Positions 54,389 to 62,774 of a DNA stretch of 64,000 bases are shown one piece after another. The notes under the pieces are model-generated. The model worked only from the letters and a program-made list of their open reading frames with translations, was not told where the DNA came from and did not search any database. A program made the position numbers and the translations under genes. Origin of the DNA: Rhizophagus irregularis (Eukaryota; Glomeromycota; Glomeromycetes; Glomerales; Glomeraceae). Positions within the stretch are counted from its first letter, which is position 1; each line of letters opens with the position of its first letter. Location: positions 2,067,501-2,131,500 of the forward strand of contig NC_089438.1 in NCBI RefSeq assembly GCF_026210795.1, written 5' to 3'.

Positions 54389-55453
54389 CTAAATTGTATG
54401 ACCATAAATAACTCTAGCTTGTTTTCTTTCTTTTTGAATTTTATCCAACATTAATTTTCTTTGTACTAAACCATCTCTTGCAGCTAAACTAAGTATACCT
54501 GCTAATAATTCAATACCTCTAACAGAATCATCGTTAGCAGGTATAGGCCAAGTAACCTTACTAGGATCAAAATCAGTATCAACTATACCAATAGTAGGAA
54601 TGTTACCGTATCGTGCTTCCTCAAGTGCAATCTCATTTTCTAAAGGATTTAATAAAACCAGTAAATCAGGTTTAAATGTTTTTGAAATAACATCATTTTC
54701 ATTTTTTGGTATTAAATGACCTAAAGTTTGTTGAGAATTTGTTATAGTACCAGGTAACCAACGTGTAGTTAATTGATATTGATTGCAACGTTTAGCAGCT
54801 TTTATTACACTCCTAGAAAATAATCCTCCTCTCGTGTTAATAAATAATATTATGCCGCCATTATATGAAATTTCTTTCATCACCTTACATGCTCTACGTA
54901 AATAGATTAACGTATAATCTAAATTTATTATATTTATACCATATCTTATACCAAATATAAATGGTGATGTTTTTGGATTCCAAAGCGACGTTGAATGTCC
55001 TAAATGTAAATTTGCTGACAACAAAGAAGACATTGTTAAATCATATGGCGAAGGCGGAGATTCTAGGTTTTTTGTTGCTGAAATGGAAACCTTTTTAAAA
55101 GATCCTGTTTGTTTTACAAATTCCGGAACTAAAAGAAATTTTATAAAAAAATATTATTTATTTTTTCCTTTTTTTTAAAAAAAAATATTTTTTTTTTACC
55201 ATCGTCTTTTAATTTCAATTTTGCCGAATCAATAGGTTTATCGTCAAAAGCTTTAAAAAATCTATAAGATAATTCCTGTTTAAAATCATCATAATCATGA
55301 TCTATAACTTGCTGTTTAGAACTGTTTAAAGGCAAATCCTTATATAAGGATGATATGAATCTCGTTGATACTAGTAATTAAATAGTTAGAATAAAAATTG
55401 TTAAAACTTTTTTTTTAAAAAAAAAACCAAATGCTTACTAGTAAATTTTCCAT
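54389..55453 (-). CDS. MRP4: Mitochondrial small-subunit ribosomal protein uS2m
   Basis: Three exons on the minus strand. The last exon carries NLHLGHSTSLWNPKTSPFIFG, IINLDYTLIYLRRA, GGIILFINTRG, CNQYQLTTRWLPGTITN, PDLLVLLNP, NIPTIGIVDTDFDPSKVTWP and IPANDDSVRGIELL, a complete uS2 pattern. Upstream, DLPLNSSKQQ and VPEFVKQTGS join across the intron at about 55130-55200. The first exon is very short, MENLL from the ATG at 55453; the only phase-keeping acceptor I find is AAG before GATTTGCC, near 55337. That makes the very N-terminus less sure. The protein acts in the mitochondrial 28S-like subunit. It is divergent from ORC1 with a tRNA gene in between. Confidence 0.85.
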
Positions 55454-55610
55454 ATCGATTGTGGTATAATACTCGAGATAAAAAAGCGCGCGAATTATTT
55501 CGAAGAGATTGAATTGAATACATTAAAGATAATTTATCTAAAAAAACATTTTTATAATTTGTCACATTATCATGATCTAGTTTGTAATACGATCAATACG
55601 ATCTACGAAC

Positions 55611-55619
55611 AAAAAAAAA
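55611..55619 (-). terminator. RNA polymerase III terminator of the tRNA-Asn gene
   Basis: On the minus strand a run of nine T lies 11 bases after the tRNA 3' end, as required for Pol III termination. Confidence 0.7.
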
Positions 55620-55630
55620 CGAGATTAAAT

Positions 55631-55704
55631 CGCCCCCACCTGGATTCGAACCAGGATCCTTTCGGTTAACAGCCGAACGCGCTAGCCGGTTGCGCCATGG
55701 AGGC
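55631..55704 (-). tRNA. tRNA-Asn (anticodon GTT)
   Basis: A 74-nt cloverleaf on the minus strand without intron. The acceptor stem GCCTCCA pairs with TGGGGGC (one G-T pair), discriminator G. The D arm contains box A TGGCGCAACCGG. The anticodon arm is TTCGG-CTGTTAA-CCGAA with anticodon GTT. The T arm CCTGG-TTCGAAT-CCAGG includes box B GGTTCGAATCC. It lies between the divergent uS2m and ORC1 genes. Confidence 0.97.
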
Positions 55705-55915
55705 TATGCTGTATGATGCAAAGTCATTTGTTTATATTTAAATCATTTGTGAGAATTAGGACAGCGTTCAGTGTCACGATGTATCATTCACACATGATCT
55801 GCATTTATAAAGTCGCGTGAAGTTGAATGATCTTCTAAATGACAAATTTTGACTAATATAATTGAACTTCTTTGCAATAAATATCTACTGTAAAACGTCG
55901 CGTAAAAGGAACAAA

Positions 55916-58022
55916 ATGACAAGAACAAAGAGGATGAACTCATTCCCTTCTCCTGATACACCAAAGCGCAATAAGAATTCTATTAGAAAAAGCGTTGAAG
56001 ACGAGTATGTTGAAGACGAGTATGTTGAAAACGAATATACTAAAGACATTGAAACTGACTTTGTTGTTACACCAAAGCGTAATAAGAGGATTAATTATAA
56101 TGAAGGCGCGGGGACCATAACACCTAAGCGTAATAAAAGAGTAGACCCAATGGTTACTGTACTTATTACGCAAAAAAAAAATGAACCCCTGAAATCAAAA
56201 ACTCACGATATTGTTTCAAATTACGCGAATGAGGCAGTTACACCCGGAGAACAGCCCGTTGTTACTGTACTCATAACGCCCAAAAAAAATAAAACGCAAA
56301 TTCCTAAACAAATCGTTACTCCCCCCTCTATAAGGTAAGTGTTTTTTGATGTTCTTTCAATTGTTGTAAAATAATTAACTTCTCTTTGAAAATATATAAC
56401 AGAAGAAGGACAGGTCGTTTATCTTCAAGTATTGATAATCGTATTCAACCTATCAATAAACCTTTAACAAGATACGATATTGCAAGAGAACAATTACGAC
56501 TTGAAGAGGTTCCCATAAATTTTCCTTGTCGTGAAAAAGAATACGATCAAGTCTACAATAAAATTAAGGAATCAATTGATGAACTTAATGGTCGTCGTAT
56601 TTTCATATCTGGTCAACCTGGTACTGGTAAAACTGCTACCGTACGACAAGTTATTAAAAATTTGAAAGAAAAAGTTTGCAAGAAAGTTAGTAGATTCGAT
56701 AATTCGCTAATTATTTCAAATCTAAAAAAAAGTTAATCATTTTAAATATAATATAGGAATTAAATCCATTTGAATTCGTTGAAATTAATGGAATGGAAAT
56801 TAAGCCTCCTGAAAAGGCATATAGTGTCCTTTGGGAAGGTTTAACCGGTGATCGTATTTCTCATAAAGATGCTGAATTTTTATTGAATGAAATGTTTAAT
56901 GATGAAGATAATGAAGTTTCAATGTTTGTGATTTTTTTTTCTTTTTTCTCCCTTTTTCAATATTATTAATTAAGAAGATTTTTATTTGATTCTTTATAGT
57001 GTCTTCATGATAGATGAATTTGATTCGCTTATCTCAAAAAGGAGTATTGTATTTAATAATCTTTTGGAATGGACTGCTATACCAAATTCTGGATTTGTTT
57101 TGATTGCCCTAACTAATGAAATCAGATTACCGCACTCATTATTAACCAAAAGTCAAGAAAGCAAATTTAGTTAGTATCAATATTTATAATACGTGAAGAG
57201 TGTGCGGGTTTAACTGGTTTAACTTTTTTTATCGAATTTATTTTAGGATTGGAAAGATTAGATTTCGAGCCATATACGCATGAACAGCTTTTCACTATTT
57301 TGAAATCTCGACTTGAAAATATAGAGATATTTGCAAAGGAAGCTGTCGAATTTACTGCAAGAAAAGTGAGCGCTATTTCACAAGATGCAAGAAACGCTCT
57401 ATGTATTTGCAGGTAATAATTTAAATAATTGTTTGAATGTTAAAATGGCGCGATCATTAAGAATAAGATTATTGAGAATAATCAATCATTGAAAATTTTT
57501 AGATATGCCGTGGGTGTTCTTGAGGCACAAGTGAAAAATAAATTTGTATCGGAAAATAGTTATGTAACTATACCAATGGTTCTAGAAGCTATAAAGAAAA
57601 CTAATACTCCTTGGAAGAGATATATTAGTACAAGTTCTCTACGAGTAAAAGTATTCCTTTGTTCCTTATTATTATTATTGAAAGAAAGCAGAAAAAGTGG
57701 TAAAGATGAAATTGAATTTAAATCTGTAAGTTATGATATTTAATATATATTTAGATTCCCCGGATTCTTTACTAATAATTATATATTTATTTATATAATG
57801 TAATAGGTTATAAGAAAATATAACAAAATATGTGAATTTAAAGGTTTACCATGTCCTCCACTTGCCGAATTAACGAATATTGCCTATGATCTTTTATCAT
57901 CTTCAATGTTGATAATGGATCCCAGTAAAGATGTTGATTCTTTAATTAAATTTAATGGAATCGAAAATGATGTTAATTCAGTATTGTCTAGTGAACTATT
58001 TTTTAAAGATTTAGTTGGGTGA
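55916..58022 (+). CDS. ORC1: Origin recognition complex subunit 1 (ORC1), short form
   Basis: Seven exons starting 55916-56334 and 56403 on; about 550 residues. The start MTRTKRMNSFPSPDTPKRNK at 55916 is the first ATG in frame. The first 140 residues are basic and disordered, with TPKRNK or close variants five times and an Asp/Glu/Tyr repeat (VEDEYVEDEYVENEY). The AAA+ part follows: VPINFPCREKEYDQVY, Walker A GQPGTGKTATV, FEFVEINGMEIKPPEKAY, Walker B VFMIDEFDSL, LIALTNEIRLP. ISQDARNALCICRYAV belongs to the lid, and EFKGLPCPPLAEL to the winged helix. These match ORC1 better than Cdc6. It loads MCM at origins with ORC2-6. No N-terminal BAH domain is present. The box VII position reads ESKFRLERLDF, with Lys where the SRLG-type Arg is usual. 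Confidence 0.9.
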
Positions 58023-59742
58023 TAAGAATATAAGCTAATCAAAAAACATTTTAATTAAAGACTTTTAATTTGTTAAAAAAAACAAAATATATCATTAATT
58101 TAATCTTTGAATATGAATTTAATAATTTAGATTGGATCTTGGGTATAATTAGTGCACTTTATATCAAACACGATAATAAACAGTCTGTATAACCGTTTCA
58201 ATTGATTGAGCTTGCTAAATATTACGTTATTTAATTTTTTTCTTTGACGTTAGACGATACAAAAGATAACATAATATTCATAATAATGATTAGGTTGAGT
58301 TTGTTGAAAATCATAAAATAAAAGGAGTTATTGGATATAATTATCGTAATAATGATTTTTATGATTTTTGGAATTATGAGCAAGACGTATTATAATAGGA
58401 ATTGTTTGGAGGAAATAACAACATATTTGTGTGCAAGATCAATGTTCGTCTTGACGATTATGGCTGAGAAAGATTATGAATTTCAGATTTAAACAGACTA
58501 TAATTTAAAGCAACATTAAAGTATTATTATCCCAAAAATTTATACTAATTCTGGCCAAACTCATAGTGCCAGCGAAATTTAATGAAATTCAATCCGGATG
58601 AAAATCCGGATAAAACCGCTACGGATCGAAGCACTAATCTTCGTCTCATTTAATATGAATTATTGAAAATGTAGACTGCTGTAACAGTGATCAGCCAAGA
58701 AAAAATAAATTATTATTTTTTTTGTTAATCCAGTAGACAAAAGATCATATCGCATTAAACTGTAATCAAGCCCTGAAAAGTCAAAAGAGATGAATTAGCT
58801 GAAGCAGTTCGTGCTTTCTTCTTATTGGTGAATAGATAATTCGTGTAGTCGTTTTTGATGGGTCTTACTCATTTATTACCTCATTTATTACATGTCATTA
58901 ATATAAGGATATATAATAATACACACCACTACCATAATTTACCAGATTTCATAACATTACTTATTGATTTTCAAGCTGCAAAGAGGTTCACGAATTTTTA
59001 ATAAAACTTAGCCGAAATTTTTTATTTTTCGTATATTGAAAAGAAAGAAAATTTTTAGAATATTAAAGGCTGTAATAAATCAGCTTTCAAATAAAAAAAA
59101 TTGTCTGAATTCAATTAAATTTTTTTTTATTTGAAAGATATTGATATGTAGTTCTTATTTATTAAGAAAAAGGAGAATAGTTTTAAAACATTAAGAAATT
59201 ATCTCATTGCTAATTATAATAAATTCTTTCTTTGCAATAAGAAAATTTTTATTTTTAAAGTTTTTTTATTTTTTATTAATAAAACTATGTAACCAGCTTA
59301 AAAATCAATAAGTGAATTTTATGGAATCCAGTAATTTATGATAAGGGTGTGTAGAATAATAAAATTCTACTTTTATTTATAAAACTAACTATATGCAAAA
59401 ATCTGCTTTATATTTATTTATGTTAAAATTATACTTATAATTTATATATTGAAAAATATACTAGTAAAATTGAAGTATTCCATTATTTCAGTTGTTTAAT
59501 TAATTAAAATTTAATTAAAGTATTGATAATACTTGTAATTACTATTTTATCCTATTAGATTTCAAATAAAACTAAGAATTAAAACTTAAAAAAATATATA
59601 TAGGTTAAATTATGTTATTTAAACAATTTACCTATAATATTTTTATTTTTTTTACAACCTGAAGTTAGCCTATAATTTTAACTAGCATTACTATTAATGC
59701 AGGTACAAATAATACCTTATAATTAATTATTATTGCTTGGTA
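58023..59742. other. Intergenic DNA with possible element remnant, no gene
   Basis: No coding frame. A less AT-rich patch at about 58550-58660 has the direct repeat ATCCGGATGAAAATCCGGAT (58601-58620) and looks like a fragment of an old element. The rest, mainly 59000-59700, is AT-rich with long A and T runs. Confidence 0.45.
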
Positions 59743-60804
59743 TCAGGCTTTTTCCTTATCATCTTTTAGATTATTTGTAGTCTTATCTTTTGATTCTGAA
59801 TAATTAATTTCATCTTTTAAAGATCTCTTTAAATCATCATTTATAGATAAATCTTTTTCCATTCCCTTAATCAATATATCAGCAATATTGCCAACACTTG
59901 GGGCCTTTTTATCACCATCATCATTAAATCTTTTTTCAACATTGATATACATTCTAGATTCTTCTTTAGTTTTAGCATTTTTAAACATTCTTTTACCTAC
60001 ACCTAACTCCTCCCATTCCCAACGAGTCACTCTCATACCAATGCCAGGAGGACAATTTTTAGACAAATATAATAATAATTTATCAATAACATTTTTATTT
60101 GCATCCTTAAATGTTAATAACCTTTTATGAGTTTTTCTTTCAAAATTTTCTTGGGATTTCTTATGCACAAAAGGTCCTCTTGGAACTGTCCATCGTGTTG
60201 TTTGTGTTGGCAGATAAACTACACCTGAACATGGGATTGAAAGGTGAAATGCCGTACGACGTGCAAAATCAACAAAAAAATCCATTGGTCCCAGTATATA
60301 TGAACGAAAATGTATATTACATACGGTTATATTATGTTTTTGAGGAATTCTTTGTGGTTCTAATTTTATTTATATATAAAAAAAGTGAGGAATATTAATT
60401 ATGAGATGATTATTGAAAGGTTTATTTACCTAAATAAATTGGATCGATTTGTTCTTCTTGGCTATCCGTTTCTCCATCAATTTTTCCAAAGGGTTTTTGA
60501 ATTCGATCAATTGCTTGCAATTGATTTTCTCCAAATAAATCTCTAGAACCCACTCTATAAACAATTTAGAAAAAAAATAATTTTATATTGCAAAATCAGA
60601 ATGTTAGCGAATGTAGCGAATGTTCAAAAATCCGAAATATGTAATTACACATATCCACGTAAGCTTGATATTCTTGAAAATACCAAAATTCGAGTTTTAC
60701 TCTATTCATATAAATAATAAATGCTTAATTAATTGAAGAATTTACTAAAAATATTTTCGTTTAAAGCTTACATTTGAAATAACTGATTTAAAGAAGCTCG
60801 ACAT
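59743..60804 (-). CDS. RSM10: Mitochondrial small-subunit ribosomal protein uS10m
   Basis: A minus-strand gene ending at the stop at 59743. The main exon, from about 60330, carries VCNIHFRSYILGPMDFFVDF, ARRTAFHLSIPCSGVVYLPT, TTRWTVPRGPFVHKKSQENF, ERKTHKRLLTF and PPGIGMRVTRWEWEELGVG, a full uS10m pattern. The preceding exon encodes GSRDLFGENQLQAIDRIQKP, and the join at 60367/60430 keeps the frame. The probable start MSSFFKSVISN at 60804 looks like a mitochondrial presequence. Linking it needs a small extra exon near 60680-60655, so the N-terminus is tentative. The C-terminal 60 residues are Lys/Asp-rich, longer than usual. Divergent from ORC5, 132 bp apart. Confidence 0.85.
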
Positions 60805-60936
60805 TACAGGTTATAGATGAAATTGATGAAATTTCTATCTATTGCAGATCTATACAACCTATCGATCGACATTTTAATGACAAAATTATTGAACCCGATT
60901 TTGCTACTACCAAAAATTGTCAAATTTTAAGAAAAA
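60805..60936. promoter_or_regulatory. Shared divergent promoter of uS10m and ORC5
   Basis: 132 bp between two opposed start codons, the tightest pair in the window. It contains ACCTATCGATCGACAT at 60858-60873, a partly palindromic site. The bidirectional function is inferred from spacing. Confidence 0.5.
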
Positions 60937-62774
60937 ATGTCGAACGCTATAAACGGATTGGTTGAAGAATTTCCTGGAAGAACGCGTCAAATTGAGGCCT
61001 TAATAAATTGGTTTGGTGAAGTAAGTACGTAACAATAAAAACAAATAAAATAAAATAAAATAAAATAATGTATCTAAAGTTTATTTGTTATCAGCCTACA
61101 GAAAAAGCGCCAAATTCAATTTTTATACACGGAAATAGAGCGTTGGGAAAAACTGAAATTGTAAAGAAACTCTTCAAGATTTGGTTTCCTACATTCAATT
61201 ATTCGATCCTAAATTGTAAAATATACTTTCAACTCGAAGATATATTTGAAGTTTCATTAAAACACTTGACTGGTAAAAACAATAAATGTAAAAATATTGA
61301 TGAATTTGCCACGATGTTGCAAATAATTTGCGAAACAAATGAAGAAACGAGATATCTGGTAGGGACAGCAGTTAAAATATTCATTATTTAATTAATTATT
61401 TCTTTAATTTTCTTTTTTGATTTACAGATATTTGATAACGCGGAATTATTGTGGAATTTTTCTCAAACTTTAGTTCCTGCTCTCTTAAATCTCCCTCAAT
61501 GGGTAAAATTATATATAATTTATTATGGTTATACTAATTTTATATTCTTTGCTTATTATGGATTCCTTCTTACTATTTAAGACTGGTACAAATCTTTGTG
61601 TAATCTTAATTACACAAGTTCCTTGGGAGAAATTTCGAAGATATCCAGGAATAACTGAGCCTATCCAATTATATTTTCCAGAATATTCAAAAAATATCCT
61701 TTCTTGTTCTGTTATTTCTCATACCGTTATTTTTTAATCATACAAATCCTTAATAGATTTAATAACGCGATATAATTCAGATTCTTGAGAAAACTTGTCC
61801 AAAAGATGAAGACATTGAATTTTATCGTTTGTTTGTAGATTATATATATAGTGTATTTTTTGACTCTTGTGATTTAATTGATTTATTCCGCGTTATACCA
61901 GATCTTTATATAAAATTTATTCAGCCTGTAAATGAGGAAAGAGGTAAACGGTATAGTTTATTCTTGATTATCGATTTCTATTCTTATTATATTATTACTA
62001 AATATAAATTTGACATGGATAGTATCAAGAAATGATTATTCGCTCTTATTCAATGAATTAAATCCGCACATAGAATTGGTATTAGATAAATTATACTCGC
62101 AGCATATAACACCATTAATAGGTAAGCGATTGAAAAAATTCGAATTATAATAAATCTACATTAATAACTTTTTACATTTTCTTTATATAAAAGAAAATCA
62201 ATTGCCTATATGGTCGTTATACTTGTTAATTTCCGCATTTCTTGCATCTTATATTCCGCAAAACCTTGATAAACATCTTTTTTCAAAAGAACATGAAAAA
62301 CAGAAACATTCCCGGAAAAGAAGAAAAAAAGAAATCAATGCATTAAAGGTTCATTTATTATATTTATTAATATATAAATTATATAGTTTGAAAAACAACT
62401 TTATTAAAACTTTTTTTATGTGAAAAAAAAGTTTAATGAACAATTTACAGGTCCCCAATCAAGTGAGATGGAGCGAATTTTTGCTATATTTCAAAGCATT
62501 TATCAGGATTCAATGATTCCCTATATATTACTTTTACAGCAGGTTCGGAAAATTAAATTTTAAACATTCATTTTTGTTTTAAAGAAATATTAATTATTGA
62601 TTAAATTCTTTTTAATAGTCAGAAACATTTGTGACTTCTCATCTTTTCACTCGTACAGAACGTAATAATGTTCAATTATTTAGGTGTAATCTTAGTTTTG
62701 ATTATATCAAACAAATTTCTAAAAATATTAATTTTGATATTTTTAGATATTTAGATGATTCTTTCACTTTGTAA
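60937..62774 (+). CDS. ORC5: Origin recognition complex subunit 5 (ORC5)
   Basis: About nine exons; the start MSNAINGLVEEFPGRTRQIE at 60937 is the first ATG and the stop is at 62772-62774. The AAA+ N-terminus has FPGRTRQIEALINWFGE, then SIFIHGNRALGKTEIVKKLF with Walker A GNRALGKT, and IFDNAELLWNF in the Walker B place (DN, not DE, as common in ORC5). Next come LCVILITQVPWEKFR and LIDLFRVIPDLYIKFIQPV. The C-terminal domain has LISAFLASYIPQNLDKHLFS with RKRRKKE, GPQSSEMERIFAIFQSIYQD, and FDYIKQISKNINFDIFRYL. These are signature ORC5 elements. The acceptor that keeps the frame before FNEQFTGPQ is at 62430-62431 (AAAAAAAAG), not the nearby TTTACAG. It belongs to the same complex as ORC1, 3 kb upstream. 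Confidence 0.88.

Follow-up and report, generated by a model that had tools for sequence, protein, structure and literature searches.

ORC1 and ORC5 each face a mitoribosomal small-subunit gene in Rhizophagus irregularis: two compact divergent pairs, probably adjoining by chance

Gene content and geometry of the cluster

In the window analyzed here, a 64,000-nucleotide stretch of the Rhizophagus irregularis genome on contig C10, the genes for two ORC subunits, ORC1 and ORC5, lie close together, each head-to-head with a gene for a mitochondrial small-subunit ribosomal protein. The genome searched comprised 146,748,485 bases on 32 contigs; the published description of R. irregularis DAOM197198 assembly GCA_026210795.1 gives 32 scaffolds, 146,773,001 bp, and 30,209 genes (PMC10234402). 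The features of the cluster are as follows.

54389..55523, minus strand: uS2m (MRP4-type mitochondrial small-subunit protein), exons 55523-55439, 55370-55200, and 55128-54389 (splice model, Pfam, PDB)
55631-55704, minus strand: tRNA-Asn (GTT), between the uS2m and ORC1 start codons (ARAGORN)
55705..55915: ORC1-side stretch with two copies of GTCGCGT (ACGCGAC), at 55812 and 55897
55916-58022, plus strand: ORC1, with AAA+, Cdc6/ORC lid, and winged helix, 7 exons (splice model, PDB, Pfam)
59743..60804, minus strand: uS10m (RSM10-type), exons 60804-60772, 60701-60649, 60554-60430, and 60359-59743 (splice model, Pfam, PDB)
60805..60936: gap between the uS10m and ORC5 start codons, a candidate bidirectional promoter of 132 bp lacking ACGCG
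60937-62774, plus strand: ORC5, 9 exons, 417 amino acids (splice model, PDB, Pfam)

The block from 54389 to 62774 runs exactly from the uS2m stop to the ORC5 stop and consists of two divergent pairs placed tail-to-tail, with ORC1 and uS10m convergent and 1.7 kb between them. In the splice models, the start codons of uS2m and ORC1 are 392 bp apart and those of uS10m and ORC5 132 bp apart. With start codons standing in for TSSs, both pairs show the geometry of bidirectional pairs, namely, opposite strands and starts less than 1 kb apart. The splice models and ARAGORN thus bear out the order, strands, and coordinates given in an earlier note on this DNA, as well as its statement that each ORC gene is head-to-head with a mitochondrial small-subunit gene, and PDB and Pfam matches confirm the four protein identities that it had proposed.

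Splice models were built from reading frame and GT-AG junctions, with exon joins deduced from the genomic sequence alone. None of the four protein genes is disrupted, and their introns measure 65 to 94 bp. uS2m (3 exons, 331 amino acids) matches Pfam Ribosomal_S2 at 8.5e-59, its closest PDB chains are mitochondrial uS2m/MRP4 (5.5e-56), and a presequence was judged by eye to be present. uS10m (4 exons, 275 amino acids) matches Pfam Ribosomal_S10 at 1.9e-30, with a mitochondrial S10 as its closest PDB chain (2.7e-33). Its refined model adds two short 5' exons, which by eye give a presequence-like N terminus and which bring its start to only 132 bp from that of ORC5. One further, lower-scoring locus per family was found in the genome, on C4 for S2 and on C6 for S10; both were taken as presumed cytosolic paralogues.

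ORC1 (547 amino acids, 7 exons) matches a PDB ORC1 chain at best at 4.4e-63 and Pfam AAA (6.8e-14), Cdc6-ORC lid (4.3e-07), and Cdc6_C (5.4e-06), and Walker A (GQPGTGKT) and Walker B (IDEFD) motifs are visible by eye in its translation. A misnamed CDC6 was rejected, as the best CDC6 chain scored 1.1e-37 against 4.4e-63 for ORC1. Many ORC1 proteins have an N-terminal BAH domain. The 547-residue model gave no Pfam match to one, possibly through a missed 5' exon, and we treat the domain as nonessential for calling the gene ORC1. Seven of the eight genome matches to ORC1 fall at the window locus; the eighth, a weak match on C16 (E 0.03), lies inside what appears by eye to be a retrotransposon and was dropped as a paralogue. 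Separately, the 140 N-terminal residues (window 55916-56334) contain four TPK(R/K)NK near-repeats, which we take to resemble CDK sites, and at window 57140-57260 the SSRLGL of the best-matching ORC1 chain is ESKFRL in the model, the motif arginine being replaced by lysine.

ORC5 matches a PDB ORC5 chain at 3.7e-43 and Pfam ORC5_C (1.6e-23) and AAA_16 (3.9e-11), with ORC5_lid (4.7e-05) falling under the curated cutoff; in its model, the exon 7/exon 8 junction is the one most open to doubt. Searches with PF07034 and PF05460 returned no match for ORC3 or ORC6, which does not show that they are absent.

Neighbors of mitoribosomal and replication genes elsewhere in the genome

The neighbors of 13 mitoribosomal protein (MRP)-type genes outside the window were surveyed. 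Eleven were found by searching with 12 E. coli ribosomal proteins joined into one query, with 14 of the 20 match rows used; the other 6 (C26:1777516, two on C3, C31:2530935, C32:1000194, and C21:2969825) were set aside on inspection by eye as probable cytosolic or weak homologues. Identity rests on the E. coli query alone for 7 of the 11 (uL2m, uL3m, uS5m, uS7m, uS12m, uL14m, and uL15m) and is also given by Pfam for 4 (uS11m, bL17m, uL16m, and uL4m). The remaining two genes are PF05047 matches. A third PF05047 locus, L017, was excluded from the count as NDUFA2-like by eye; its gene is divergent from an Rrp40-like gene.

Mitoribosomal genes in this genome often have a divergent partner. A divergent neighbor was found for 8 of the 13, two (L024 and L032) have a same-strand upstream neighbor, and for three (L022, L023, and L028) none was recognized. 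The divergent partners are malonyl-CoA decarboxylase, mL58 (MRP-L20), ATP adenylyltransferase, glyoxalase, an RFC small subunit, F-box-like and chorismate mutase genes (both weak matches below cutoff), and one minus-strand gene without a Pfam match. One pair consists of two mitoribosomal genes, uS7m (minus strand) and mL58/MRP-L20 (plus strand), facing each other about 175 bp apart (L027:2734-4477, C25).

A replication gene was recognized in one of these eight partners, the RFC small subunit. It lies on the minus strand, head-to-head with an mS25/mL61-like gene on the plus strand, with starts about 160 bp apart (L019:1853-3545, C30), and the latter gene matches mitoribosomal L51/S25-domain chains (best, 8.5e-08). 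We count this as a third divergent pair of a replication gene and an MRP gene, and as such it favors the earlier reading of the cluster as a coupling of the two functions.

The reciprocal survey, a partial look, covered two loci for ORC2, one for ORC4, and seven of MCM type. Reading ORFs of at least 75 amino acids by eye, together with Pfam matching of 10 ORFs (nine neighbors and one ORC4 fragment), recognized no MRP gene at any of these loci, although under these limits an MRP gene with short exons may have been overlooked. Among the neighbors, Pfam identified a ubiquitin hydrolase, a helicase, a GILT-like protein (weak), an ABC1 kinase, a syntaxin, and a DnaJ protein; three more neighboring ORFs had no Pfam match. 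At a second RFC locus (L033, C23), no MRP neighbor was recognized by eye. The two ORC2-like loci are L006 (C19:3814290-3815091) and L007 (C3:2299235-2299971), and a brief tract of degenerate, telomere-like TTAGG/TTAGGG repeats lies about 300 bp upstream of one MCM gene (L009:3930-3980, C7).

CGCG-core elements upstream of replication genes

MBF and SBF in fungi bind ACGCGT and CGCGAA (PMC4862756). Upstream of ORC1, ACGCG occurs at -15 and -100, between the tRNA gene and the start, and a third copy at -237 falls inside the tRNA gene. With CGCG-core elements so near upstream, ORC1 is a candidate MBF/SBF target. ACGCG is absent from the uS10m/ORC5 gap, and the nearest copy on the ORC5 side lies within ORC5 exon 1; the ORC5 promoter may therefore depend on the uS10m side.

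The motif was noticed first at ORC1, and ACGCG was then listed at the loci examined and counted in fixed stretches upstream of starts. Within 350 bp upstream, ACGCG was found in 8 of 12 replication genes versus 1 of 13 MRP genes (two-sided Fisher P = 0.004), with approximate starts in one MCM gene, exon edges used for 4 MRP genes, and an MRP set that differs from that of the neighbor survey in including mL58 and keeping the RFC-facing mS25-like gene apart. The P value was the same at 250 bp (0.004), and at 500 bp the counts were 8/12 versus 2/13 (P = 0.015). When ORC1, the source of the motif, is left out, 7 of 11 replication genes carry ACGCG. Six of seven other pentamers gave 1 to 2 of 12 versus 0 to 1 of 13; the overlapping pentamer CGCGA gave 7/12 versus 0/13. 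The RFC gene at L033 and a weak MCM match at L015, whose starts are not defined, were excluded from the count.

The positive genes are ORC1, one ORC2 copy (C19), five of the six MCM genes counted, and one RFC gene (L006, L009, L011 to L014, L019, and the window), and those without ACGCG in the 350 bp upstream are ORC5, ORC4, the second ORC2 (C3), and one MCM gene. The split between the two gene classes suggests that replication genes have a cell cycle element of their own, and the reading that we favor is that many of them may do so at G1/S regardless of position. ACGCG also lies within 350 bp of each of the three MRP genes that adjoin a replication gene across a common intergenic region; these sites belong to the partner or the tRNA, and ACGCG alone therefore cannot tell whether the MRP partner responds. 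As a by-product, putative MBF-like elements at 8 of 12 replication genes offer an entry point to the cell cycle of an experimentally difficult fungus.

Origin of the arrangement and comparison with known systems

Most probably, two independent, compact, divergent housekeeping pairs adjoin here by chance, and the layout does not require that licensing and mitochondrial translation be specifically linked. The earlier note had itself allowed that the arrangement may be chance in a compact region, and the neighbor survey, motif counts, and chance estimate together make this the most likely account. Divergent neighbors, mostly of assorted function, are found for 8 of 13 other MRP genes; no MRP gene was recognized, in a partial look, at the other replication loci; and ACGCG divides replication from MRP genes. 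Any two of six ORC subunits would fall within three gene positions of each other with a probability of about 0.003 with 26,634 to 30,209 genes, or about 0.011 if some 8,000 core genes are counted, and with 8,000 co-complex gene pairs, 1.6 to 6 coincidences of such closeness are expected per genome, both figures of 8,000 being assumptions. Under that expectation, and since the window was scanned for anything notable, one such cluster is unsurprising. Set against chance, it is a striking double coincidence that two ORC subunits within 8 kb should each have an MRP small-subunit partner, and the RFC/mS25-mL61-like pair surfaced among just 13 genes surveyed.

In this account of chance adjacency, transcription of each pair would begin in a small, open intergenic stretch. 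For uS10m and ORC5 this stretch would be shared outright, and uS2m and ORC1 would have separate core promoters, one on each side of the tRNA-Asn gene. ORC1 would be switched on at G1/S through CGCG elements of its own, MBF/SBF-like in type, a mode of control that may extend to 8 of the 12 replication genes examined, and the mitoribosomal genes would be constitutively driven.

An alternative hypothesis is that the block is old and conserved: divergent pairs whose promoters overlap are difficult to separate, and the combination would persist as microsynteny with no regulatory purpose. The very short gaps between start codons at uS10m/ORC5, uS7m/mL58, and RFC/mS25-like genes are consistent with such a constraint. 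One scan of a genome contig collection with ORC1 and one of a viral contig collection with ORC5 each returned no relative outside this genome, as expected in both for fungal genes. We consider this explanation unlikely.

Under the hypothesis of the earlier note, each ORC gene and its mitoribosomal partner would be coupled through a shared divergent promoter, and licensing would rise in step with mitochondrial translation capacity. At uS10m/ORC5, where the start codons are only 132 bp apart, a shared promoter is plausible; the case is weaker at uS2m/ORC1, where the tRNA-Asn, a Pol III gene, separates the two and ORC1 has its own CGCG sites at -15 and -100. These G1/S-like sites between the uS2m and ORC1 starts, like the existence of the RFC/mS25-mL61-like pair, fit a coupling. 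The wider link finds little support in the genome: among the divergent partners of other MRP genes, one in eight is a recognized replication gene; the partial look at ORC2, ORC4, and MCM-type loci recognized no MRP neighbor; and upstream ACGCG occurs in 1 of 13 MRP genes. Coupling of this kind is very unlikely, and if the pairing were selected, it would represent a rare hard-wired link from nuclear DNA replication to mitochondrial biogenesis. Least probable, in our judgment, is that the lineage preferentially places replication genes (ORC1, ORC5, and the RFC subunit) head-to-head with mitoribosomal genes, such that G1/S divergent promoters would also boost the supply of mitochondrial ribosomes in a coenocytic fungus, where the nuclei lie in a common cytoplasm. 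We retain chance adjacency of two ordinary divergent pairs as the preferred reading.

The earlier note knew of no report of this arrangement, and our literature search likewise found none of ORC1 or ORC5 head-to-head with mitochondrial ribosomal genes. A search on R. irregularis bidirectional promoters returned nothing on such an arrangement, and one on the origin recognition complex together with mitochondrial ribosomal proteins and bidirectional promoters returned solely work on a human deletion syndrome. A related case is the human ORC3/RARS2 head-to-head pair, in which an ORC subunit likewise faces a mitochondrial-translation gene, although both subunit and partner differ from those here; a search for its bidirectional promoter found nothing.

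Compared with the MBF/SBF (MCB/SCB) G1/S genes of fungi (PMC4862756), 8 of 12 replication genes here are alike in having candidate CGCG-core sites near upstream; the difference is that four (ORC5, ORC4, the second ORC2, and one MCM gene) have no site within 350 bp. A close parallel to the layout itself is the human catalogue of head-to-head genes, in which 27% of mitochondrial-function genes versus 11% of random genes are so arranged (PMC7817982). By that precedent, housekeeping genes facing mitochondrial genes are a known kind of arrangement. The pairs described here share with the human bidirectional pairs their opposite strands and starts well under 1 kb apart, mitochondrial and housekeeping genes being overrepresented in the human set; they differ in belonging to a fungus, in being recognized from gene positions, and in having a tRNA gene within one of the two gaps.
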